From a virus, in the IMG/VR virus record IMGVR_UViG_3300033149_005718, positions 1 through 34,050 of that record: 34,050 nt of DNA, one strand, 5' to 3'. A model generated the notes under the pieces. The model did not search any database and was not told the DNA's origin. It worked only from the letters and a program-made list of their open reading frames with translations. This document shows positions 2,800 through 21,766 of the stretch, in pieces. Made by a program: the position numbers and the translations under genes. The first letter of the stretch is position 1. Each line of letters begins with the position of its first letter.

Positions 2800-3504
2800 T
2801 TATGGTTTCAACAACTTCAAAAGAAGTTGTTGCCAATGGTTTGGACTTAATTGATATAACCTGTAAGCCTGTGAAAGAATCCTCAAACTCAATCTTTCAG
2901 AAGTTTGACCAACCTTTTCCAAAAATTGAACAATCTTTTGTCTTTGTTTAGAGGTTAAACCATCAAAAGGTTCTTTGCTCTTTTTCTTTATGAGTTCAAT
3001 TATCTCCAAGTTTGTGAGTTCAAATTCGTAATAGAAACCTCTGTCTGCGACAGCATTTATGAGCGGGTTTGTTCTGTTTAACCTATTTAATAGCAGGATA
3101 ATTCTTCCTTGAAAGTAGAAAGATTTGTTTTCAATCTTTGAAGAAGTTGAAAACCAAGAAACCTTGCGTAGTCCGTTAGGCAACTGCCATAAAGCCCCTC
3201 GTAGAAGGGAGAGCATTTTGACATTGTTGAAAATATCCTCACAATCGTCCATTACCAAGATTTTGGGTTCGGACAACTCATTGACTTGTTCCAATTGCTT
3301 ATAGAACTCCAGAGGTGTTATGTATGAATTGATATAAAGATACTCTCTGCCTTCTCGTAAGCCCTCTTGTTCCAAAGCCTTGATGGTTGTTTCGGTTTTG
3401 CCGTGCCCGGCAGGACTAACCACTACTAATGAGTGGGAATATCCTTTCACCACTCCCTTTATGAGTTTCTTTAGGACTTCAAGTTTTTTGAGTTCCTTGC
3501 TCAT
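2800..3504 (-). CDS. AAA-type P-loop ATPase
   Basis: 234 residues. The Walker A motif is SPAGHGKTET (about residues 30-39) and Walker B is ILVMDDCED (about residues 82-90). A sensor-like strand RIILLLNRLNRTNP and a conserved arginine in NAVADRGF follow, then a C-terminal helical lid. The arrangement resembles small phage ATPases of the DnaC/IstB/AAA kind that load helicases or act with DNA, but the partner is not visible. No AAAGGTC leader precedes it; it starts 12 nt after the stop of the upstream gene, so it is co-transcribed with it. Confidence 0.7.
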   Translation of the reverse strand: MSKELKKLEVLKKLIKGVVKGYSHSLVVVSPAGHGKTETTIKALEQEGLREGREYLYINSYITPLEFYKQLEQVNELSEPKILVMDDCEDIFNNVKMLSLLRGALWQLPNGLRKVSWFSTSSKIENKSFYFQGRIILLLNRLNRTNPLINAVADRGFYYEFELTNLEIIELIKKKSKEPFDGLTSKQRQKIVQFLEKVGQTSERLSLRILSQAYRLYQLSPNHWQQLLLKLLKP

Positions 3505-3516
3505 ATTTGATAAAGG

Positions 3517-3738
3517 TTAGTGCCAACCCAACATCTTTTCAATCTTTTCGCAAACCTCAATCGGTAGTTCTTTTCCACACTCTGGGCAAAGCCAGTCAAG
3601 GTGTTCGCCATCTTTTGTATCAACCGCCTCACTATCGCCTGTCTTTAGGTCAAATTCATAATAAGAAAGGGTGTCTTGGACTTGGATGGCTTTATTTTGC
3701 TCTTTTTTACAGAATGGACAAATAAATACTTTCTTCAT
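3517..3738 (-). CDS. Small zinc-ribbon protein
   Basis: 73 residues with two CxxC knuckles, CPFC near the N-terminus (residues 7-10) and CPEC (about residues 51-54), spaced to bind one zinc ion. The loop between them is acidic and ends in GEHLDWLCPEC. This suits a nucleic-acid or protein-binding adaptor. A variant leader word (GACTTT on the plus strand, 27 nt before the ATG) overlaps the end of the upstream gene. The specific function is unknown. Confidence 0.65.
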   Translation of the reverse strand: MKKVFICPFCKKEQNKAIQVQDTLSYYEFDLKTGDSEAVDTKDGEHLDWLCPECGKELPIEVCEKIEKMLGWH

Positions 3739-8398: not shown

Positions 8399-8426
8399 AT
8401 TATACTCATCTATACCCCTTTGTCAA
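8399..8426 (-). promoter_or_regulatory. Sigma-70 promoter, consensus -35 and -10
   Basis: On the minus strand TTGACA (8426-8421) and TATAAT (8404-8399) are both perfect, separated by 16 bp. Transcription should begin near 8392 and give a leader of about 35 nt before the ATG at 8357. A perfect DnaA-type box lies 10 bp upstream of the -35. Confidence 0.8.
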
Positions 8427-8436
8427 TACCTTTGCC

Positions 8437-8445
8437 TGTGGATAA
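8437..8445 (-). promoter_or_regulatory. Perfect DnaA-type box TTATCCACA
   Basis: The minus strand reads AGTTATCCACAG around this site; the core matches the bacterial DnaA box exactly. The same 12 bases occur once more, on the opposite strand, at 10664-10675. Its place directly upstream of a promoter suggests either host DnaA control of transcription or an origin component. Confidence 0.45.
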
Positions 8446-9935: not shown

Positions 9936-10337
9936 TCAAAAATGAATACTTGTTAAAAAATCAATCAAATCAGATAATTCAGAAAAACCCTTTAATTCTT
10001 GGCTGATCCAATATCTGAACCCATAAAAAGGGAAGCGGTTTTCTTGTCCTGCCACTGCCCAGCCCGTTTCATCCTTGACTGCAAGTGTCCAATCACCAGC
10101 ACTGCTTCCTGATTCTATTAACTCAACATCACTAAACCCCAGCAATTGAAAAACCTTTATATAACTACCAGCCCCAGCACCCGGCACTACTATAATTCCG
10201 CCCTCTCTTATTAACTTGCTTGCTTTCTTAATTGTTATCTTTTGCCCCTCATCATTCCAAAACTCCAATCTGCCCGCTTCTCTGATTCCTGTGGCTTCTT
10301 CTGCTACTTGTTTTTTTATTGTTTCATTTAAAGTCAT
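9936..10337 (-). CDS. Unknown 133-residue protein
   Basis: The protein has a helical N-terminus, then ASKLIREGGIIVVPGAGAGS, a strand followed by a Gly/Ala-rich turn. An aromatic-rich part follows (ENRFPFYGFRYWISQEL), then a C-terminal helix. The Gly-rich turn is not a standard P-loop. AAAGGTC lies 27 nt before the ATG. No family recognised. Confidence 0.6.
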   Translation of the reverse strand: MTLNETIKKQVAEEATGIREAGRLEFWNDEGQKITIKKASKLIREGGIIVVPGAGAGSYIKVFQLLGFSDVELIESGSSAGDWTLAVKDETGWAVAGQENRFPFYGFRYWISQELKGFSELSDLIDFLTSIHF

Positions 10338-10665: not shown

Positions 10666-10674
10666 TTATCCACA
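10666..10674 (+). promoter_or_regulatory. Perfect DnaA-type box TTATCCACA
   Basis: The plus strand carries AGTTATCCACAG, the same 12 bases found on the minus strand near 8437-8445. It lies between the possible leftward promoter and the T-free tract, in the divergent control region. A replication origin or DnaA-dependent promoter control are the two natural readings. Confidence 0.45.
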
Positions 10675-10685
10675 GCCCCAAAAAT

Positions 10686-10941
10686 ACCAAAAAACCAGCA
10701 AAACAAGCCACAAGAAAAAGAACAAAAAGAAAACCAAACCAAAAACAAAACCCAAAGGAGAAAAACAAAAAGAAGAAAAAGAGAAACAAAAGAGAACAAG
10801 AAAACAAGAAACAAGAAACAAGAAAAAGAAACAAGCAAGAAACAAAAGCAAAAGAGAAACCAAAAGAAAAACAAGAAAACAAAAGAAAACAAAAGAAGAA
10901 AGAAAGAACCAGAGAAAAAAGAGGAGAGCAAGAAGAGAAAC
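10686..10941. other. 256-base T-free, A/purine-rich tract
   Basis: From 10686 to 10941 the plus strand contains no T at all; extending to 10998 adds only one (10942). The first half is A with C and G, the second half nearly pure purine. The tract fills the gap between the divergent early and late transcription units. Because TAA, TAG and TGA cannot occur without T, several frames are open by default; no coding is inferred. It would give an essentially unstructured RNA and an easily melted or triplex-prone DNA. Confidence 0.8.
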
Positions 10942-11119
10942 TGCCGGGGAAGAGAGGGGAAGAGAAAGGAGAAAAAAAAGAAAGAAAGAAGGAAGGAATC
11001 TCTTCTCCCTCTCCCACCCGAAATCAAATTCCAAAATCCGCTAGTGAACCCAAAAGTAAAGTTTCTTTATCTACTCTTTTAGATGTTTAATTTACTGATA
11101 GAAAAGAAATGGTTCCCAT

Positions 11120-11133
11120 TGAACCATGGTTCA
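11120..11133. promoter_or_regulatory. Palindromic operator TGAACCATGGTTCA
   Basis: A perfect 14-bp palindrome ending one base before the -35 hexamer of the rightward promoter. Its centre is near -42 relative to the predicted start, a classic activator position, although a repressor could also act there. The identical core is at 1856-1869. Confidence 0.55.
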
Positions 11134-11134
11134 C

Positions 11135-11162
11135 TTGACACTTTTTCTCTGTTCTATATAAT
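11135..11162 (+). promoter_or_regulatory. Sigma-70 promoter of the head operon
   Basis: TTGACA at 11135-11140 and TATAAT at 11157-11162 are both perfect, with a 16-bp spacer. Transcription should start at about 11169-11170, one or two bases before the ATG at 11171, so the first message is effectively leaderless. Confidence 0.8.
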
Positions 11163-11170
11163 TGAGTAGT

Positions 11171-11395
11171 ATGATATGTCCATATTGCAAAAAAGAAGTC
11201 GGTAGAATGTTTGTGCAAAAGGAGAATTGCGAGGAGGAAATCAGATGTCCTTACTGCGGAGAGTTGTTGCAAACGACAGAAATAGAAAGAAAAAAGGATC
11301 AACCTACTCTTAAGTGTCCAAGATGTGGAAACTATTCAAGAAATGATTATTGTTCACACTGCGGATACGAATTTAAAGAGGGCATAGACTATTGA
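11171..11395 (+). CDS. Double zinc-ribbon protein, first gene of the rightward operon
   Basis: 74 residues with four CxxC knuckles in order: CPYC at the very N-terminus (residues 3-6), CPYC near 29, CPRC near 51 and CSHC near 62. These form two zinc ribbons. The ATG at 11171 is chosen because an upstream TTG frame start at 11162 overlaps the -10 box. The placement directly behind the strong promoter suggests an abundant regulator or adaptor; a second small zinc ribbon follows the portal gene. Confidence 0.7.
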   Translation: MICPYCKKEVGRMFVQKENCEEEIRCPYCGELLQTTEIERKKDQPTLKCPRCGNYSRNDYCSHCGYEFKEGIDY

Positions 11396-11938: not shown

Positions 11939-12007
11939 AGAAAGAGATCAACCGCTTGACCTTAGAAAATTTTGATTTTAAACTTAATTAAACCTGAGTG
12001 CAATTCT

Positions 12008-13456
12008 GTGCCATTCTTTGATTTCTTAAAAAAAGACTTTTTCAAAAGATCTAAGCCCTCAGAAGAAGAGAGAAAAGAGAAGAGGGTTTTGACAATTGAT
12101 GAGTTGGTTAAAGAACTCGGGGTTGCAAGGGAGGGTGTTATAACTTCTTATGAGGCCGAGGAGAATCCAGATGATTTGGGTCCAGAAACCTATATTGAAA
12201 TGCAGAAAAACGATGGAGAGGTTCAGGCTATAGTTAGACTATTCACTCTTCCAATTATCTCAACCCCAGTTCATATTATCCCTGATAAGAACGATAAAGG
12301 AGAAAGGGATTTTATTGAAACCGTTTTTACTGCACCTCCAAGATTGGGCGGAATGACAACTCCGCTTCCTTTTATTATTGCTGACATGACGAGGGCTATT
12401 TTTGAGGGCTTCAGACTCTATGAAAAGGTAGCCCGAATCATAGAAGAAGGGAAATATAAAGGATTTGTAGGTTGGAAAAAATTAGCTCCAAGAGATTCAA
12501 GAACCATCAAACTAAAAGCGGATGAGCATGGTGGTTTTGCTGGTGCTAGACAAGAAGCAAGTTTTGGTGGAAAGTTATTCGAGGTCGATATTCCCCCAGA
12601 AAAATGTATGCTTTTCACCTTTCAAAAGGAAAAGCATTGGCTTTATGGAGAATCTATTTTAAAGACAGCCTTTTATCATTATGATAAGAAACACAAACTT
12701 TATTATATTGCTCACAAGAAAGCAGAAATCGAGTCGACTGGACTAAAGATCTTGAGAATAAATAATACAATGACCCCCGACCAAAAAAGAAAGGCGGAAG
12801 AGGGCGTTGATCAAATTGGTGTAAACTCGAGGATTACTCTTCCGCCAGGAGTTGACCTTGAAATTGAACGAGGTGGTGGTGGCTATGATCCACTTCCATT
12901 GATAGAGCATCACAATTTAATGATGGCTCGATCAGCATTATGTCAGGCAATAGATCAGGTGAAGTATGCTTACCCTTATGGAAAAGGAACAACATCTTCT
13001 CAGTTTTTGATCATGGCAATAGAGTCAATCATGAGACAGATGGAAGCAACGCTTAACACTTATGCTGTTGCTCCTCTTATTGATTTTAATTTCGGTACTT
13101 CTGCTTATCCTAAAATCAAATTTGAAAAAATTTCCGATGTTTCCAAACAATTCTTGATGGATGTCTTTGACCAAGTAATGAAAGCGAAAGTTCAACTTCC
13201 CAAGGGCTTCATTGATCAAGTTATTGATGAAACAGCAAAAACTCTGAATTTGAAGTGGGCTTTTAAAGATGAAGAGGAAAACAAGGAAGCGCTTAAAGAA
13301 TTTGAGAGAGGGAAACTGGAAGAGTCAAATAAACTTAAAATAAAGGCTCCTCCCACACCAAAGACACTAAAAACCAAACTACTAAAGGTCAAAAAGACAA
13401 AAGAAAACTTAGAAAAATGTTACCAATTAGGAAGGGAATTTGCTCGTACAGTTTAG
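12008..13456 (+). CDS. Phage portal protein, Mu gp29/DUF935-like
   Basis: 482 residues from a GTG start (MPFFDFLKK); a TTG at 11972 would add 12 residues and neither has an SD. Recognisable portal features are an early GEVQAIVRLFTLPIISTPV segment, the central HWLYGESILKTAFYHYDKK followed by HKKAEIESTG, and a long C-terminal helical region (QFLIMAIESIMRQMEATLN; ISDVSKQFLMDVFDQVMKA). Portals form the 12-subunit DNA entry ring at one head vertex. The length is normal for the family. Its stop overlaps the next start (TAGTG). Confidence 0.8.
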   Translation: MPFFDFLKKDFFKRSKPSEEERKEKRVLTIDELVKELGVAREGVITSYEAEENPDDLGPETYIEMQKNDGEVQAIVRLFTLPIISTPVHIIPDKNDKGERDFIETVFTAPPRLGGMTTPLPFIIADMTRAIFEGFRLYEKVARIIEEGKYKGFVGWKKLAPRDSRTIKLKADEHGGFAGARQEASFGGKLFEVDIPPEKCMLFTFQKEKHWLYGESILKTAFYHYDKKHKLYYIAHKKAEIESTGLKILRINNTMTPDQKRKAEEGVDQIGVNSRITLPPGVDLEIERGGGGYDPLPLIEHHNLMMARSALCQAIDQVKYAYPYGKGTTSSQFLIMAIESIMRQMEATLNTYAVAPLIDFNFGTSAYPKIKFEKISDVSKQFLMDVFDQVMKAKVQLPKGFIDQVIDETAKTLNLKWAFKDEEENKEALKEFERGKLEESNKLKIKAPPTPKTLKTKLLKVKKTKENLEKCYQLGREFARTV

Positions 13457-13572
13457 TGATCTTTTATGGCTACAAGATTTGTCCACGATGTGGCCAAAAG
13501 AATGATGATTCAAGAGCCTACTGCTGGTATTGTGGTTGGCCACTCGATGTAGTTTTGCGTCCAGATGACTAA
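13456..13572 (+). CDS. 38-residue zinc ribbon between portal and the giant enzyme gene
   Basis: A GTG start overlapping the portal stop by one base, and a TAA stop at 13570-13572 that overlaps the next ATG by 8 nt. The protein contains YKICPRCGQKNDD followed by YCWYCGWPLD, two CxxC knuckles 10 residues apart, a complete minimal zinc ribbon. The two-sided overlaps and intact motif argue that it is real despite its size and GTG start. It may be an adaptor for the neighbouring proteins. Confidence 0.65.
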   Translation: MIFYGYKICPRCGQKNDDSRAYCWYCGWPLDVVLRPDD

Positions 13573-16500
13573 TATGTTAGTGCCTTCTGATATACAAGAG
13601 TTATTAAAGCCAGGAAGGGTTGTACCCCTGCCAGCAAGGATTTTAGTTCCTCCACATGGACGCCTTATTTGGGAAGGAAAAAAGAAGGCGATTTTGAGTT
13701 CTCGTCTAACTGAAAAATATATTGGAATTCCAGTATATTTTGTTGAGGGAGATAAGGCCTTGGGAATCATTGAGATTAAAGAACCCAAAAAGATTAGTCT
13801 GGAAGAAGCAAAGAAATTGCGAAACAAACACATGGTTAGCGATGAAGAAATAAAAAGATGGTGGAAGGGAAAGAAGATTCTATATTATTACCCAATTGAG
13901 TTAATTTCAAAATTTGATCCGCCCAAAGAAATCATTCGTCCTCAGGGAGCACAAGTTTGGCTACAGACAGTTACATTTAAAAGTTTGGAAATACCGAGTC
14001 CATCAAAGATGACAGATGAGGAGTTGTTAGAGACTCATAAAAGATTGCATGAATTGTGGCATGAAGCTGACGATTCAAAAGAAGACATTATAAACTATCA
14101 TATTCTTGTCAAAGAAGAACTTAGAAAAAGAAAGCTTGGGCATAAAGATATTGATGAATTGGATGAAAAGTCAAGACTATTTCAAGAAAAGTTCAGTAAA
14201 TCGGGTTATAAAATAACGTTCTTTGGCACAAAAGGATTGGTTGAAGAAGAGGGACCAGGTCATCGTTTTCATACAGCAGTTTTATATGAGTTTAAAGGAA
14301 AGAGATTGTTGATTGATTATGGAGAAAAAAATCCAGGGAATTTAAAAGAAATCAAGCCAGACTATATACTTCTTTCACATAGTCACCCCGACCATATCGG
14401 AGGTTTAATGGACATGCCTGTTATTGTTTCTAAAGACACAGCGAAAGAAATTCCTGAACTCTATAAAGATTTCAACATAGATATTAGAAGTCAATTCGAA
14501 TCATATAAACCATTCAGGCTTGGTCCATTTAAGATAACTCCTATTCCAGTTTTACATAGCATTAGATCAAAAATGCATGTGTTTTTGATTGAAATGGGAG
14601 ATAAGAAGGTATTACAAGCAACTGATATTCTTGGATGGCACAAAGGAGATCGAGAGAAATTTGTGAAAGATCTTGATTTAGCCATTATTGATGGATCTTC
14701 TCTAGAAAGAACACTGGCAAGAAAAAAGGGAAAGGCTGGAGAGCCTTATGGTCATGCATCAATATTTCAGCAGTTGAAGAACTGGTATTTACCAGAGAAC
14801 ACAAAGAGAGTGATAATTACTCATCTTGGAAAAGAACCATTGGCTCTTGGAGACGAAGAACTCCTTAGAAGAGTGAAAGAAATAACCAAATTACCCGTTT
14901 ATATAGCACAAGACAGTGCTGTTATTAACCTTTCAGAGGATTTAGCCCCAATTTATACATCTGGGAAAGTAGAAGGAAGGAGAATCTATCTTAAAGAAGT
15001 TTTGCCATATTTTAAAAATTTCATTATCCAAAGGCCCTTGGCTTACCTTACTGGAGGTTTGGTGAACCAAGGTTCAACAAGAGGTGATATTGATATTTTA
15101 TTACCAGATTGGTTGAGTTTTGACATGCGAAGAATTATAGAATTTAGAATTGCAAGAAGTTTGCCTTGGTATCTCAGAAGGCGACTACACTTTGTATATG
15201 ATAGATTCTCAACTCCATTCACAAACGCTGTTCCACTCTTTAACCTTGTAATGGTAAGAAGCAAAGACGAAATTTTAAGACTTTCTGATATTGAAAAACA
15301 ACTAAGAGAAAAACCAAGAATTGCTGAAGCAGTGAAAGACGCAGAAGCTTCTGCTAGAGAAGACAAAATAAAATTGTTTAGATATTTTCTTCCACTTAAA
15401 CCGACCAGAGGATATTATCCAGGAAAAAGACAGACAATAGATTTGTTTATCGAAGTAATGGAGGCAAGTGGAACCTACCCATTCTACTCAACAAAGAAGT
15501 ACGACGGATTTAATTGTATTCTGATGAAAAAAGGAGATAAAATCAAAGCCTATTCCGAAGATGGGGAAGTTATAACTGATAGACTCCCAACTTTAGTCGA
15601 GGAAATAAAGAGATTAACTAAAGAAGATTGTGTGTTAATGGCTGAATTAGAATGGTGGGAAGATAACGATCATAAACCAAGAGAAGTAATTGCTGGTTAT
15701 ATTCATCGAAAAGAGACACCAGATGATTCTCATGTTGTTGCTAATGTTTATGATATGCCCTATTTCAAGGTTGATATTCATAATGAGCCTTTTGAAAAAA
15801 GATTGAAATTACTCGAATCCTTACCCTTCAAACAAAGAACATGGAAAATTCCAAATATCAAGATAAAATTGAATTTTGCTCCATATTTGCTTTCTAAAAA
15901 TAGAGAAGAATTAAGGAAGCATACCGAATTTTTAAGAAAGCTTCCCGGTTCCGAAGGCAATGTGGCTAAGACCAGAGATTTCAAGTACAACCTCAAAGGA
16001 ATTCGTTCTGGAATGGTAAAGTTTCATAACTCAACGGTTGTCTATGGCAAAGTCCTGAAAATAAAAGAAACAAAAGTAAAAGGAGTTTACAACTATTATT
16101 TCGGGATCGAACCTGGAAAATATAAAGGGAAAGTAGAAGAGCTTGAGAATGTTTTCTATCATAGAATCGGTAGAACATTCTCTACAAGTTTGAAGGCAAA
16201 AGTTGGAGATGTTTTGGAAATTGAGGGAGAAACACTCAATGTAGAACATAACCTTAAAGACGATACTTGGAATCTAAGTTTATGGGCTCCGAGGGTAATG
16301 AGAAAAGTAGATAGAAAAGCAGATACAATTAAGGAGGCTATCGAAAGAGCCAGAAAGAATTATTGTCTTCAAGAAAAAGAGATTACCGAAGATGGAGAAA
16401 TTATTTATCTCTCGGATATTGAAAAACTTAATTTGAAGCAATTTAGAGCGACTGGTATGGATGAGGATTTGAAGCATCCTAAAGAAAGAAAGAAGGAGTT

Positions 16501-19222
16501 AATTGCTGACCTTCGTTATCTTGGAAATTCTGCTTTTCCTCGCTTAAAACAAGGACTAAAATGGGGAGATTGGAAAATGATAGATGTCCTTAAGTATTTT
16601 GGTATTGGAGTAGATATCAAACCGAAGAAGAAATCTGGATCTTGGTATGAATGTTGGAAACGAGCCGAGAAATATATGAAAACAAGAGTCGAAAAACAAG
16701 CAGATCCCTATTTAGAATATCCAAAACCAGAAGAACCAAAAGAGTATGTTGTGCAACATCACTATAGAGGGAGATCTGTCCACTCTGATTTAAGAATAAA
16801 AATTGACGATTACCTCATAGGATGGACCATAATGGACATGATAAAGGGAAAAATTAATGAGCCTGTAATGAATCTTAAACAGGCAAAAAAGTATGATGCT
16901 CAAAATATATTTAAGATAGATTGGGAAAAAGGAGTTCCAAAACTAAGACCCGGAATAAAGCCTGGTTTTAAAGAAAAATACGCTGAACTAGCTGCTGCAA
17001 GAAAAGCACCAGAACCAGTTGAATGGCTTAATGTTGAAGGAATAACTCCTCCTGGTGAAGTTGGAGGAACGAAACGTTATCCTGGGGTCTTTCATATTAT
17101 CGATAAGGGATATTGTGAATTCGGAGCTCAAAAATGTATGAACGGAAAAACAGAGCTGATAGTAAAAGACGAGGATGGATATATAAAAAAGGCTGAACTT
17201 CGTTCTATAGTTGAACAAAGACGGAATGTTGAAGTTCTCACTCCACTTGGTTTCCAAAAGATAAGACGATATTTTAGAATTCCGCTTAATCCAAAGCAAT
17301 ATTTAAAAATTGTTTTGGAGAATGGATCATCTTTGAAATGTGATTTTCAACATCCGAGTTTTCGTTTCAATGAAGGAAAGATTGAGAAAGTACCTGCTCG
17401 ACAGTTGAAGGTTGGAGATCTAATTCCAATATTCTCTAATGGATATGAAGGAAGTTCAGGAAATTATGAATTAGGCAGATTTCTTGGTTTATACCTCGCT
17501 GAGGGTAGCAAAGCATTCAAGACTAATCAAGAACTCTCTTTTGCGTTTAATGAAACCGAAGAAGATTTAATTGAATTTGTTTCTAATTTCGGAAAGAAAT
17601 TCGGTGCCAAAGTTACAATTACAAAAAACGGAAGAAAAACAGGTAGGGGAATTAGCGTTAACCTATGTCAGGCGGGAGCTCTTAATGGACTTGTCAGACA
17701 ATTTGTTAAGACAAATAAACAAGGTTTAAGATCTGAGGTTTTCGGTTTAAGCTTAGAAGCAAGACGGGGACTCATAGATGGATTTCATCAAGGTGATAAT
17801 GATGATTGCGAAAAATATAAATATAAAGCAATTGGTCAAGGGAAAAAACACATTCAATTACTCAAGGATATTCATAAGTTGTTATTCAGTGTTGGGGAAA
17901 TCGCTTCTTTGAATATTTGGAAAGGGAGAGGTGGTAGAGTTACATTTTCTTTAAACAATTACAAAAAGGGATTTTGGCATCAATATTGGATTAATAATCA
18001 GTGTTTTATAAGGATTAAAGAGATAGAAATTCCCAAATTAAATGGAGAACGTTTTCTTTATGATATTGAATTAGAAGATGATCACCGAATAGTCTTAGCA
18101 AATGGAATTATAACTTCAAATTCTTACTTTCACGAATACTTCTTTTCTAAAGGCAAACTTAAAGGCAGGTGGTTTTTTAGACAACTTAAACCTTCTGAAT
18201 TTAGAGGAAAACAAGTGGAAAAACAAGAGGTCATTCCTCCATCTAGAGAAACTCAATTTAGACAAGAGGCTCCTTGGTTTCTTATCAAACCAATAGATGA
18301 GACTCCGTATGTTATTTCGGATGCTGCTGTTGAGAAGAAATGGATTCCTCCTTACGGAGTTTCTGCTTTACCAGAAAAAATAAAAAAGAAAATTCCGAAG
18401 GAATTTCAATACTGGAAAGAAAAAGATGAAACTGAAAGAATAAGGGTAAGAGATGAACTTGTTAAGAAACTTGGGAAAGTATTAATTGAAAAATCATTAA
18501 GTCCAGGTGCAAGGTGGGCTAAAGCTGCTTACCGTTATGTGTTGGCTCAGCAACAACTCACACTGTGGATTAGAAGTTCTCTTGAGGTTAAAAAGCAAAG
18601 AGTCAAGAAGGCACTCGAAGAATTTGAAAAACTAAGACCATTTAAGAAGGAATGGCTGAAAGATGCTATAAAATGGTTAGAATTACGACCAAATGAAATC
18701 AAGGGACTTATTATTGAGGAACTAGAAGTGAGGAAATCGAGGGAAGTTGATTTCGTGTTACAATGGCATTTCTTTAGAGGTCAAAAGGTGATTAGGGCTG
18801 GAGTGAGCCAACAACACTGGGATTTGAGACTTGATTTTCCAGAAAGATCAGGATTAATGCATTTTGTATTAGAACAAAATCCGTTGAAAAACAATGAAGT
18901 AACAGCCATTTGGAAACCTTGTAAATATAAAGAATGGATGAATGTTTCTCAATATCTTCCACCAGCCAACGAAAGAGCAAAGATGTCGAAAGAGGAGTTG
19001 GCTAAATTGCCACCCGGAATTGAGGAGGCTAATCCCACAAAGGAAACTGCTGCTTATATTAAAATTTTGGATAAAGGAAAAGCTATAGTTTTTGAAGACT
19101 CGGATTCATTCAAGAAGTTTGAGTTTAAAGGGAAAAAACTTAAAGGATTGTGGATTTTCATAAGAGAGAATACTAGTGATTTTTGGATAATGAAACGGTC
19201 GGAATTACCAGAGGCTAAGTAA
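13565..19222 (+). CDS. Giant end-processing fusion: MBL + nucleotidyltransferase + ligase + two LigD-type PE domains
   Basis: 1,885 residues, about 1,556 after intein removal. Domains in order: an N-terminal region of unknown fold; metallo-beta-lactamase fold with H272-S-H274-P-D276-H277, then H331, D354 and H420; pol-beta-type nucleotidyltransferase with GSTRGDIDI (D508, D510); ATP-dependent ligase adenylation domain with KYDGFN (K645 as lysyl-AMP site) and an OB-fold near 825-915; LigD 3'-phosphoesterase-like domain (H1065/H1066, H1073-S-D1075-L-R1077); intein 1191-1519 inside that domain; a linker; a second PE-like domain (H1735, H1751-W-D1753-L-R1755). Ligase motif I ends in N instead of R and motif IV looks weak, so sealing activity is not certain. 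Location between portal and protease suggests a role in genome ends, packaging or virion-delivered repair. Confidence 0.75.
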   Translation: MTNMLVPSDIQELLKPGRVVPLPARILVPPHGRLIWEGKKKAILSSRLTEKYIGIPVYFVEGDKALGIIEIKEPKKISLEEAKKLRNKHMVSDEEIKRWWKGKKILYYYPIELISKFDPPKEIIRPQGAQVWLQTVTFKSLEIPSPSKMTDEELLETHKRLHELWHEADDSKEDIINYHILVKEELRKRKLGHKDIDELDEKSRLFQEKFSKSGYKITFFGTKGLVEEEGPGHRFHTAVLYEFKGKRLLIDYGEKNPGNLKEIKPDYILLSHSHPDHIGGLMDMPVIVSKDTAKEIPELYKDFNIDIRSQFESYKPFRLGPFKITPIPVLHSIRSKMHVFLIEMGDKKVLQATDILGWHKGDREKFVKDLDLAIIDGSSLERTLARKKGKAGEPYGHASIFQQLKNWYLPENTKRVIITHLGKEPLALGDEELLRRVKEITKLPVYIAQDSAVINLSEDLAPIYTSGKVEGRRIYLKEVLPYFKNFIIQRPLAYLTGGLVNQGSTRGDIDILLPDWLSFDMRRIIEFRIARSLPWYLRRRLHFVYDRFSTPFTNAVPLFNLVMVRSKDEILRLSDIEKQLREKPRIAEAVKDAEASAREDKIKLFRYFLPLKPTRGYYPGKRQTIDLFIEVMEASGTYPFYSTKKYDGFNCILMKKGDKIKAYSEDGEVITDRLPTLVEEIKRLTKEDCVLMAELEWWEDNDHKPREVIAGYIHRKETPDDSHVVANVYDMPYFKVDIHNEPFEKRLKLLESLPFKQRTWKIPNIKIKLNFAPYLLSKNREELRKHTEFLRKLPGSEGNVAKTRDFKYNLKGIRSGMVKFHNSTVVYGKVLKIKETKVKGVYNYYFGIEPGKYKGKVEELENVFYHRIGRTFSTSLKAKVGDVLEIEGETLNVEHNLKDDTWNLSLWAPRVMRKVDRKADTIKEAIERARKNYCLQEKEITEDGEIIYLSDIEKLNLKQFRATGMDEDLKHPKERKKELIADLRYLGNSAFPRLKQGLKWGDWKMIDVLKYFGIGVDIKPKKKSGSWYECWKRAEKYMKTRVEKQADPYLEYPKPEEPKEYVVQHHYRGRSVHSDLRIKIDDYLIGWTIMDMIKGKINEPVMNLKQAKKYDAQNIFKIDWEKGVPKLRPGIKPGFKEKYAELAAARKAPEPVEWLNVEGITPPGEVGGTKRYPGVFHIIDKGYCEFGAQKCMNGKTELIVKDEDGYIKKAELRSIVEQRRNVEVLTPLGFQKIRRYFRIPLNPKQYLKIVLENGSSLKCDFQHPSFRFNEGKIEKVPARQLKVGDLIPIFSNGYEGSSGNYELGRFLGLYLAEGSKAFKTNQELSFAFNETEEDLIEFVSNFGKKFGAKVTITKNGRKTGRGISVNLCQAGALNGLVRQFVKTNKQGLRSEVFGLSLEARRGLIDGFHQGDNDDCEKYKYKAIGQGKKHIQLLKDIHKLLFSVGEIASLNIWKGRGGRVTFSLNNYKKGFWHQYWINNQCFIRIKEIEIPKLNGERFLYDIELEDDHRIVLANGIITSNSYFHEYFFSKGKLKGRWFFRQLKPSEFRGKQVEKQEVIPPSRETQFRQEAPWFLIKPIDETPYVISDAAVEKKWIPPYGVSALPEKIKKKIPKEFQYWKEKDETERIRVRDELVKKLGKVLIEKSLSPGARWAKAAYRYVLAQQQLTLWIRSSLEVKKQRVKKALEEFEKLRPFKKEWLKDAIKWLELRPNEIKGLIIEELEVRKSREVDFVLQWHFFRGQKVIRAGVSQQHWDLRLDFPERSGLMHFVLEQNPLKNNEVTAIWKPCKYKEWMNVSQYLPPANERAKMSKEELAKLPPGIEEANPTKETAAYIKILDKGKAIVFEDSDSFKKFEFKGKKLKGLWIFIRENTSDFWIMKRSELPEAK
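17135..18121 (+). mobile_element. Intein with LAGLIDADG homing endonuclease
   Basis: Residues C1191 to N1519 of the host protein (329 residues), followed by S1520 as the downstream splice nucleophile. The N-terminal block CMNGKTELIV matches the CxxGxT start; block B is CDFQHPSF with its His; the C-terminal block is DHRIVLANGIITSN. The penultimate residue is Ser instead of the usual His, a known but less common state. Two LAGLIDADG motifs, LGRFLGLYLAEG (1303-1314) and GLIDGFHQGD (1402-1411), carry the acidic residues E1313 and D1411. The insertion is in the C-terminal strand region of the first phosphoesterase-like domain. Confidence 0.85.
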
Positions 19223-19234
19223 TACTTGACCCTT

Positions 19235-21766
19235 ATGAGCACGCCATATAAAATAGATTTTGAATTTCCGTTATATTTGAGTGAAAAGAAAGATGGTGAA
19301 CGTTTTATCTTAGAAGGCTACGCTGCTGCTAATGATTTTGATTTTCAGAACGATATAATTTCAGATAATGCTCTTAAAAGAGCAGCGAAAAAATTCGCAA
19401 AAGATGGAAAGCTTTGTTTGAATCATACGAAGGAGATAGTTGGGAAAATATTGGATTGTCGTTTTAAGAATGGAAGAATTTGGATAAAAGCTGAAGTTAC
19501 TAAGCCAAGGGTCATTGAAAAAATTAAGTCGGGAGAGTTAAACTGCCTCTCCGTAAAAGGAGTGGTAGATTCAAGAAAGATTGAACGAATTTTCTCTCCC
19601 GAGTTAAGCTTAACTGTAAAGGTCGTTACAGATTTGGACCTTGAGGAAGTGTCTTTAGTTCCTCAGGGTGCGAATCCAGAAGCTAAAACGATTCGGTGGT
19701 ATATTTCAAGAGCCACCGAATCAGCAGAAAAAACTATGGAAAAAAATTTGGCTGAAGATTTTGAGAATTTAAGTGAGATTGAAGAAGGAGAGCCAGAAGA
19801 TGTTGAGCAAGTTGATGAAACCCAAGGAACAGAAGAGGTCAAAGAGGAACCAACAGAAGAGACAGACAACAAGGAAACCAATGAGGAAAAAAGCAAAGAA
19901 GAAACTAATGAAACTGAGGGTGGTGAGAAGGGGAACGAAACAGAAGAAACTAAAGAATCAGAAGATGGAACTAAAGAAAATGAGACTGAGGAAGCGGAAA
20001 CCAAGCAAGATAGCGAAGAGAACAGTACAGAACTTTCAGAAACTTATATTGAAAAGAGCGCATATACAAGATGTATGAGTCAGGAACTCAAAAAGGGAAC
20101 TCCATTTAAAGAAGCAGCCAAAATCTGTAGTCAAAAACTTAGTAAGGTTGGAAAATCATTGAAAATAGAAAAATCTGCTTATACAGATTGTATGAAGAGA
20201 GAATTAAAGGCTGGTAAAACAATGGCAGAGGCAGCTAAAATTTGTAAAGAAGAGACTACAGAGAAAGCTAAAAAGAAGGAGAGTTATCCTTATGGTTATC
20301 CTTATCCGAAAGAAAGAAAAAAGCGTCCCTATCCTTATTTCTACCCTTATGGCTACCCTTATGGTTACCCCTACGGTTATCCGTATGGATACCCTTATGG
20401 ATATCCTTATAGATATCCAAAACTGAAAAAGTCAGAAGAGGGTGGTTTGGTTGGAGCTATCAAAGGGGCATTGGATAGTCTTATCAAGACTGTGAAGGAT
20501 GAGAAAGTAAAGGAAGAACTAAAAAAGATCAGAGATATGGTCAACAATTTGAGAAGAGCTTACCCTTCGGCTTATCCGTCTCCCAAAAACCTATCAGAAA
20601 AAGAAGATGAGAAGGTAGTATTTCAGATAATGAATCCAGGTAATATAGAACTTGGAGAAAAATCAAGATTTAGAAAGGAGCTCCTGAGGGTTGGTACATG
20701 GTTCCATGGTGCTGCGAAAGATGGGATTCTTGAAGTTACAAAGGATACCTTAAAGAAAATCGTTGAAAACTTTAAGAAAGGAATTATCGATAATGTATTT
20801 GTACCACTCGGACATCCAGTTGGAGATGATCCATCAAAGAACGTTGGAGAAGTTGTTAATTTGGAGGCAACAGATGACGGAAAATTGATTGCTGAAATTG
20901 AAGTTAAAGACGAAACAGTTGCTGAAAAGATTAAAAAGGGTTTAATCAAGGGGATTTCTGCTAGTATTGCTGAGAATTACATTAAGAAAGATACAGGTGA
21001 AGAAGTTGGACCCGTTTTATTCCACGCTGCTTTAGTTAGTGAGCCTTATATCAAAGGAATGGGACCATTTGTCCCATTGTCTGAGATAACCGAAGATAGT
21101 TTGATTGTTCCTATTGTGAATAGTGAAGCTCCCTTGACCCTTGAAGAAATCGGACTTAAACTAAAAAGAATAGAAGAAAGGTTGAATCTGAGTGAAGAAA
21201 GCACAGAAGAAAATAAAGAAATGGAAGAAAATAAAGAAGAGAATAAAGAAGAAACCAAAGAGGAGGAAACCTCAGCAGAGGGGACCTCGGAATCGGGAAC
21301 CGAGTCCTCTGGAGGTGGTGAAACCACGGAAGAGGAGAAGGAAACCGAAACTGAGGAAACCAAAACTGAGGAAACCGAATCCGAGGCGGTTGAGGCTAAG
21401 AAAGGGGTTGACTTAGCCGAAGCCGAAAAAATGTATAAGGAACTCTTGCAGGAAGGAAAAGTTACTCCTGCAGAAAAAGAGCTCCTTATACCATTGCTCA
21501 CTTCAGATACTGAAATTGAGCTATCCGAAGGCAAAAAACTTGCCTCTGGAAAAGCTCTTTATAAATATCTGAAGGAGCAACCTCCCAAGTTTTCATTGAG
21601 TGAAAGTGGAACCTCTGAAAAACCAGATGCTATAGAAAAGAAAGAAGAAATTCCAAAGGAGGTAGATGAGATACTTGAAAAGATGGATTTCAGCGATCCT
21701 GAGGATAAGACAGCGATTTGGGAAGAGTTTAAAAAACAAAAGGGAGGAGAATCAACCCCATTCTAA
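19235..21766 (+). CDS. Dual-protease and scaffold fusion (XkdF-like plus Mu I-like)
   Basis: 843 residues from ATG 19235. Residues 1-160 resemble the XkdF/S78 prohead protease: LCLNHTKEIVG (H64) and IKSGELNCLSVKG (S106) are the His and Ser sites. An acidic Glu/Thr-rich linker follows (about 175-270), then two copies of a SAYTxCMxxELKxG...EAAKIC motif near 273 and 313, and a YPYG repeat tract (about 350-393). Residues 470-620 form a second protease-like domain with LGHPVGDDP (H527) and KGISAS (S575/S577), like Mu protease I. The Glu-rich C-terminus (AEKMYKELLQEGKVTPAEKE) resembles the Mu scaffold part. It would direct head assembly and then mature the head. Confidence 0.7.
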   Translation: MSTPYKIDFEFPLYLSEKKDGERFILEGYAAANDFDFQNDIISDNALKRAAKKFAKDGKLCLNHTKEIVGKILDCRFKNGRIWIKAEVTKPRVIEKIKSGELNCLSVKGVVDSRKIERIFSPELSLTVKVVTDLDLEEVSLVPQGANPEAKTIRWYISRATESAEKTMEKNLAEDFENLSEIEEGEPEDVEQVDETQGTEEVKEEPTEETDNKETNEEKSKEETNETEGGEKGNETEETKESEDGTKENETEEAETKQDSEENSTELSETYIEKSAYTRCMSQELKKGTPFKEAAKICSQKLSKVGKSLKIEKSAYTDCMKRELKAGKTMAEAAKICKEETTEKAKKKESYPYGYPYPKERKKRPYPYFYPYGYPYGYPYGYPYGYPYGYPYRYPKLKKSEEGGLVGAIKGALDSLIKTVKDEKVKEELKKIRDMVNNLRRAYPSAYPSPKNLSEKEDEKVVFQIMNPGNIELGEKSRFRKELLRVGTWFHGAAKDGILEVTKDTLKKIVENFKKGIIDNVFVPLGHPVGDDPSKNVGEVVNLEATDDGKLIAEIEVKDETVAEKIKKGLIKGISASIAENYIKKDTGEEVGPVLFHAALVSEPYIKGMGPFVPLSEITEDSLIVPIVNSEAPLTLEEIGLKLKRIEERLNLSEESTEENKEMEENKEENKEETKEEETSAEGTSESGTESSGGGETTEEEKETETEETKTEETESEAVEAKKGVDLAEAEKMYKELLQEGKVTPAEKELLIPLLTSDTEIELSEGKKLASGKALYKYLKEQPPKFSLSESGTSEKPDAIEKKEEIPKEVDEILEKMDFSDPEDKTAIWEEFKKQKGGESTPF

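Follow-up and report, generated by a model that had tools for sequence, protein, structure and literature searches.

Strand-asymmetric tracts at replication origins, such as that of phage lambda, are commonly regarded as AT-rich zones of melting. The origin of lambda (lambda ori) holds a tract of about 40 bp within gene O and four iterons. As computed from J02459, this tract covers 41 nt (26 A, 4 G, 5 C and 6 T) and contains T-free runs of 25 and 20 nt. It has been termed 'highly strand asymmetric' in a review, and lambda ori requires transcription, the direction of which may even be away from ori (PMC5043065). Here we describe a long T-free tract in an uncultured phage. The analysed DNA, called the window, is an IMG/VR contig in its full length (34,050 bp). 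Like lambda ori, the window tract is A-rich, purine-asymmetric and located beside an initiator-type site. Unlike lambda ori, it is 313 nt long, non-coding, positioned between divergent promoters and accompanied by one DnaA-type box without iterons. The R-loop origin of ColE1 RNA II is comparable in its purine-rich transcript able to hold a persistent hybrid and in a possible short opposing RNA. However, an RNA II/RNA I relationship was not found, and the window is without a strong rightward promoter. With bacterial oriC the tract shares one perfect adjoining DnaA box, but a box cluster, DnaA-trios and a low-melting duplex are missing. The A-rich, U-poor 5' leaders of early genes in G006 (65.7 kb) and G007 (24.2 kb) resemble the tract in that a T-poor strand follows the same box-promoter. 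In contrast to these leaders, the window tract has no clear promoter ahead, is longer and is fully T-free. Tests for iterons, box clusters, DnaA-trios and a low-melting element were all negative, which places the window tract outside the lambda and oriC origin families. A literature search on phage R-loop purine tracts or DnaA-box early promoters revealed nothing direct.

The T-free tract and its surroundings

A sequence-only reading had described 256 consecutive bases without T at 10686-10941, too many to arise by chance and almost purely purine on the right side. All of this was borne out. The longest-run scan returned exactly 10686-10941 on the plus strand (256 nt; A 178, G 41, C 37; 85.5% purine, both strands unstructured). 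A lone T follows at 10942, then a second T-free run of 56 nt (10943-10998). This extension (10942-10998, plus strand) includes an A8 run at 10972-10979 and is all purine over the 53 nt of 10946-10998. The stretch 10686-10998 therefore holds one T in 313 nt, in a window with 30.8% T where T-free runs elsewhere reach 44 nt at most. Under an iid model the probability of a 256-nt T-free run is about 10^-41. In order-3 Markov simulations (n = 300, 34 kb each) the longest T-free run averaged 33 nt and reached 59 nt at most, which excludes a chance origin of the tract. Repeats inside the tract are weak, and a repeat scan revealed no iteron array there. It is unlikely that such tracts are in general explained by assembly artefacts, because L005 and L006, contigs of two different metagenomes, carry an identical 198-nt T-free tract in the same place.

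The tract is open in all six frames, which would fit a protein-coding low-complexity region rich in Lys, Asn, Gln and Arg. We regard this reading as highly improbable. Stops (TAA, TAG, TGA) need T on their own strand, and reading of the opposite strand also needs T here, so that the absence of T alone explains the openness. Moreover, the tracts of L002 and L003 hold T and stop triplets, the tract sequences are not alignable and the tract is placed between divergent promoters. A translated protein had been named as the finding that would speak against a non-coding tract. Comparison of the relatives' tracts revealed no conserved reading frame, and this, together with the position between promoters, upholds the non-coding nature.

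The divergent early and late promoters proposed around the tract were recovered as promoter-like sites. P_L, a leftward early promoter-like site (10650-10621, minus strand), reads TTGATT-18-TATCAT, matches at 9/12 positions and has a TG ahead of the -10. P_R, the rightward late promoter (11135-11162, plus strand), reads TTGACA-16-TATAAT and matches at 12/12. The ATG of the first late gene (11171) is located 9 nt past the P_R -10 (11157-11173). Because of this short distance the mRNA of this gene is probably leaderless; L002 is arranged similarly. A palindrome, GAACCATGGTTC, lies at 11121-11134 just before the -35 of the late promoter, and similar dyads are present in L002 and L012. The palindrome is likely an operator of the late promoter.

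To the right of the tract a conserved 75-nt element including an A8-9 run was found in the window and seven relatives. On the minus strand it comprises AGCGRNTTTNGGNTTTT, then a G-rich purine hairpin, then T8-9. Its core (11010-11042, minus strand), AGCG(A/G)NTTTNGG..TTTT.., is the most conserved sequence of the region. In a pattern scan, the exact form of the element beside a T-poor tract occurred only in this window's phage family. A purine/pyrimidine hairpin followed by a T8 run (10972-11015, minus strand) is terminator-like. The T8-9 run is invariant in eight loci; support for the hairpin is weak. In the folded relatives the hairpins abut the T8-9 run or stand near it, with z-scores near 0 in most. 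Covariation at this right-edge hairpin is minimal (one compensatory pair), and the energies are mostly no better than those of shuffles. The element may be the terminator of a short leftward RNA. A consistent leftward promoter for it was not found, and an Rfam search yielded no RNA family at gathering score, only sub-threshold microRNA noise.

Among the products of the rightward genes are a Mu-type portal (11972-13456), a head maturation protease, a decoration protein and a major head protein; those of the leftward genes include a sliding-clamp-like and an AAA-like protein. DNA searches revealed no cultured relatives of the region. Among the phage and plasmid records listed, portal relatives were distant only (at most about 31% identical), and no portal relative was found in GTDB genomes. 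Searches with the clamp and with gene 11426 returned no relatives. An AlphaFold model of 1867-2493 with no alignment supplied had a pLDDT of 36 and was uninformative. Between the portal and the head protease, an ORF of 1885 aa (13565-19222, plus strand) matches an MBL-fold hydrolase, an ATP-dependent DNA ligase, a LigD phosphoesterase domain and an intein C-terminal splicing region. Large ORFs are found beside the portal in relatives as well. Tandem repeats encoding YPYG are located at 20284-20418 within the head protease/scaffold ORF.

Tract composition among related phages

Relatives were collected through the portal, with 19 loci from a protein search and 35 from the portal alignment. Eight distinct phages have the divergent region: the window, L002, L003, L005 (= L006), L007, L009, L010 (= L011) and L012 (= L013, L014). 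From left to right, the order is leftward promoter-like site, box, variable tract, A8-9 run, conserved element and rightward promoter. The leftward site is present left of the tract in 8/8 loci and the rightward promoter right of the conserved element in 7/8. A DnaA-like box lies left of the tract in most of the eight loci, as TTATCCACA, TTATCCCCA, TTATTCACA or reversed TTTTCCACA, in either orientation.

A search for T-free tracts at the same locus in relatives had been proposed, and its outcome was largely positive. Five of the eight loci, the window included, are nearly T-free (0-7% T): the window and L005 with 1% each (198 nt T-free in L005), L002 with 4%, L003 with 6% and L010 with 7%. The L007 tract is short and purine-rich, that of L012 weakly T-poor and that of L009 not T-poor. 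Tract length ranges from 83 to 323 nt. At 4-fold sites of the portal gene, which themselves are 50% T, the window differs from L002, L003, L005, L007 and L010 at 58-63% of positions; saturation would be 64%. Alignment of the window tract with those of L002, L003 and L005 was no better than with shuffles. Slight similarity is left in three pairs (L003-L005, L002-L003 and window-L010). With synonymous sites near saturation and tracts unalignable beyond shuffles, these comparisons indicate that tract composition is kept while the sequence turns over. An unconstrained tract should have regained T by now. Judged from these sequences, the T-poverty of the tract would be maintained by selection or else by a local mutation bias that persists.

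The DnaA-type box and early promoters

The perfect DnaA-type box next to the tract, TTATCCACA (extended AAAAGTTATCCACAG), lies at 10666-10674 on the plus strand, and box-like sites occur left of the tract in relatives. The only other perfect box in the window is at 8437-8445, and there is no box cluster. Directly downstream of this second box is an early promoter, TTGACA-16-TATAAT (12/12), and the box is therefore also a promoter element (8399-8445, minus strand). The extended box AAAGTTATCCACAG directly precedes early promoters at window 8437, at G001 8299 and at several sites in G006 and G007. By locus, the box lies just upstream of early promoters at L092 8299, L099 4250-9708, and L097 3867 and 5721. 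A promoter matching at 9/12 or better was found just downstream of 59% of boxes vs 15% of random positions. The AAAGTTATCCACAG box-promoter set apparently forms a DnaA or phage-activator regulon. Because the extended box serves as promoter element in the phage family, a box by itself is no mark of an origin. The DnaA-box argument of the sequence-only reading is thereby weakened: the perfect box at 10666 does adjoin the tract, but it is not specific and precedes other early promoters.

The association with tracts was also counted. Of 19 extended boxes, 7 (six loci) adjoin a tract in which T or A does not exceed 3 per 100, vs about 1% of random positions. Most of these loci share descent, so the 7/19 co-occurrences amount to about two independent cases. 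One box-tract pair, in G006/G007, sits away from the divergent region as an early-gene leader. A scan of all IMG/VR contigs for a box plus a 60-nt T-free pattern returned two unrelated GC-rich matches, L022 and L023, so precisely this combination is not widespread. In L023, an unrelated phage, an extended DnaA box is followed by a T-free repeat in an apparent coding region (3444-3560, reverse strand; EQEQ linker), and this arrangement superficially resembles lambda ori. At L097 5600-6100 and L099 3900-4380 a TGCACATTGGTGCACA dyad comes after a T-poor leader. Motifs similar to it, GGTGCACA, are repeatedly present ahead of other early promoters, and the TGCACATTGGTGCACA/GGTGCACA motifs are likely a repressor operator.

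The region could also be a DnaA-regulated promoter region only. Box and P_L would then be an early promoter controlled by DnaA or a phage activator, and the tract would be upstream DNA. The recurrence of box-promoter pairs in the window and relatives is in line with this idea. It leaves a 313-nt tract with one T unexplained, however, and most other box promoters are without such a tract. We consider it improbable.

Physical properties and proposed function of the tract

Folding of the window tract gave -0.03 and -0.04 kcal/mol per nt for the two strands, vs -0.19 for random genomic windows. Among the eight loci, the tract of L010 is not unstructured. Duplex stability of the tract equals the genome mean, and 12% of 60-bp windows are weaker than its weakest 60 bp. 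The stability scan revealed no low-melting unwinding element (DUE) in the tract; with this average stability, it is not a classical melting element. The longest run of DnaA-trios in the tract was 2 triplets, no more than in shuffles, and a 10-11 bp signal of phased A-tracts (curved DNA) was absent. Hybrid energies were computed from nearest-neighbour values (the Sugimoto hybrid and SantaLucia duplex sets). With these values, the tract favours a rightward RNA:DNA hybrid over the duplex, ranking in the top 0.2% for the window and within the top 0.2-4% for 7/8 loci. The leftward transcript hybrid is strongly disfavoured in the window tract. The earlier suggestion of an R-loop former is thus matched by a high computed propensity for rightward RNA.

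A rightward transcript running from the box through the tract was considered, either as an unstructured purine leader or as an R-loop RNA, RNase-sensitive or hybrid-forming, and the hybrid energies speak for it. Such an RNA might prime in a ColE1- or T7-like manner or control the late operon, and the leftward element at the right edge might give a short antisense RNA. Clear promoters pointing into the tract lie between box and tract in L005 (TTGACA-17-CATAAT) and L003 (TTGACA-17-TGTAAT), and in G006 and G007 a box-promoter precedes a T-poor early-gene leader. In the window, however, the promoter into the tract is just a 9/12 match (TTTACA-18-AAAAAT); none was found in L007, L009 and L012, and none adjoins the tract in L002. 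The downstream genes also differ between the divergent-region site and the G006/G007 site. The earlier proposal of an unstructured leader RNA therefore agrees with L003, L005 and the second site of G006/G007, but is unclear for the window itself. On balance, we see in the transcript a possible explanation, if not a likely one. Still a little less likely is a passive spacer, in which a low-complexity A-rich insert arose between the divergent promoters by slippage or local mutation bias and was perhaps kept promoter-free with no replication role. Weak internal repeats, variable length and lack of sequence conservation are compatible with such a spacer, and a T-free strand cannot hold a -10 hexamer (no TATAAT), which would avoid spurious initiation. 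Against it, the tracts of four relatives are still T-poor although synonymous sites are nearly saturated, and association with the box at a second locus would be unexpected.

Our tentative preference, held with less than even confidence, is that the early/late control region of the phage has, in this tract, a non-coding cis element defined by its composition. The tract would act as the zone of a transcription-activated replication origin in which the strands are opened and loading takes place. This reading is favoured because the lambda tract is similarly asymmetric, lambda ori needs transcription and the tract lies between divergent promoters. Divergent promoters leave negative supercoils between them (twin-domain effect). 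In the proposed mechanism, divergent transcription from P_L and P_R would concentrate negative supercoiling on the tract, beside the DnaA-type box. As one strand is kept purine-rich and T-free, the opened strands could not self-fold, and a rightward RNA would form a stable hybrid with its template. Strand opening and loading at the tract would then resemble those at the purine-asymmetric A+T tract of lambda ori. Supercoil-driven opening, any protein binding and origin function are what we infer. The position and the same layout in eight phages, the composition conserved without sequence, the box association, the unstructured strands and the hybrid bias are observed here and speak for an origin. 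A single perfect box, missing iterons and DnaA-trios, the box at other early promoters and the average stability speak against it, as do the L009 tract (not T-poor), the mildly T-poor L012 tract and the L010 tract, which is not unstructured. No O-like initiator gene adjoining the tract was identified; the left neighbour (9936-10337) had no family match in three libraries. GC skew had been suggested as an origin check, and the cumulative minimum does fall near the tract. At 4-fold sites, though, the skew tracks gene strand and not the side of the tract (G004, G002). The minimum reflects gene orientation instead of replication arms, and it was rejected as origin evidence.

A further reading is that base composition alone defines the cis element, with a T-free purine strand under selection while its sequence turns over. 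The uncultured phage family would then use an iteron-free replication origin driven by transcription supercoils (R-loop or strand-capture) between divergent promoters. We rate this as rather unlikely. The family separates two properties: the tract is no easier to melt than the genome, yet its T-free purine asymmetry is kept near synonymous saturation. It also provides a natural series, from 313 nt with one T (window) and 198 nt without T (L005) to a weaker tract in L012 and none in L009, which makes the idea directly testable. If the tract is indeed an origin, strand asymmetry itself, through unstructured single strands or hybrid stability, would be the selected property.
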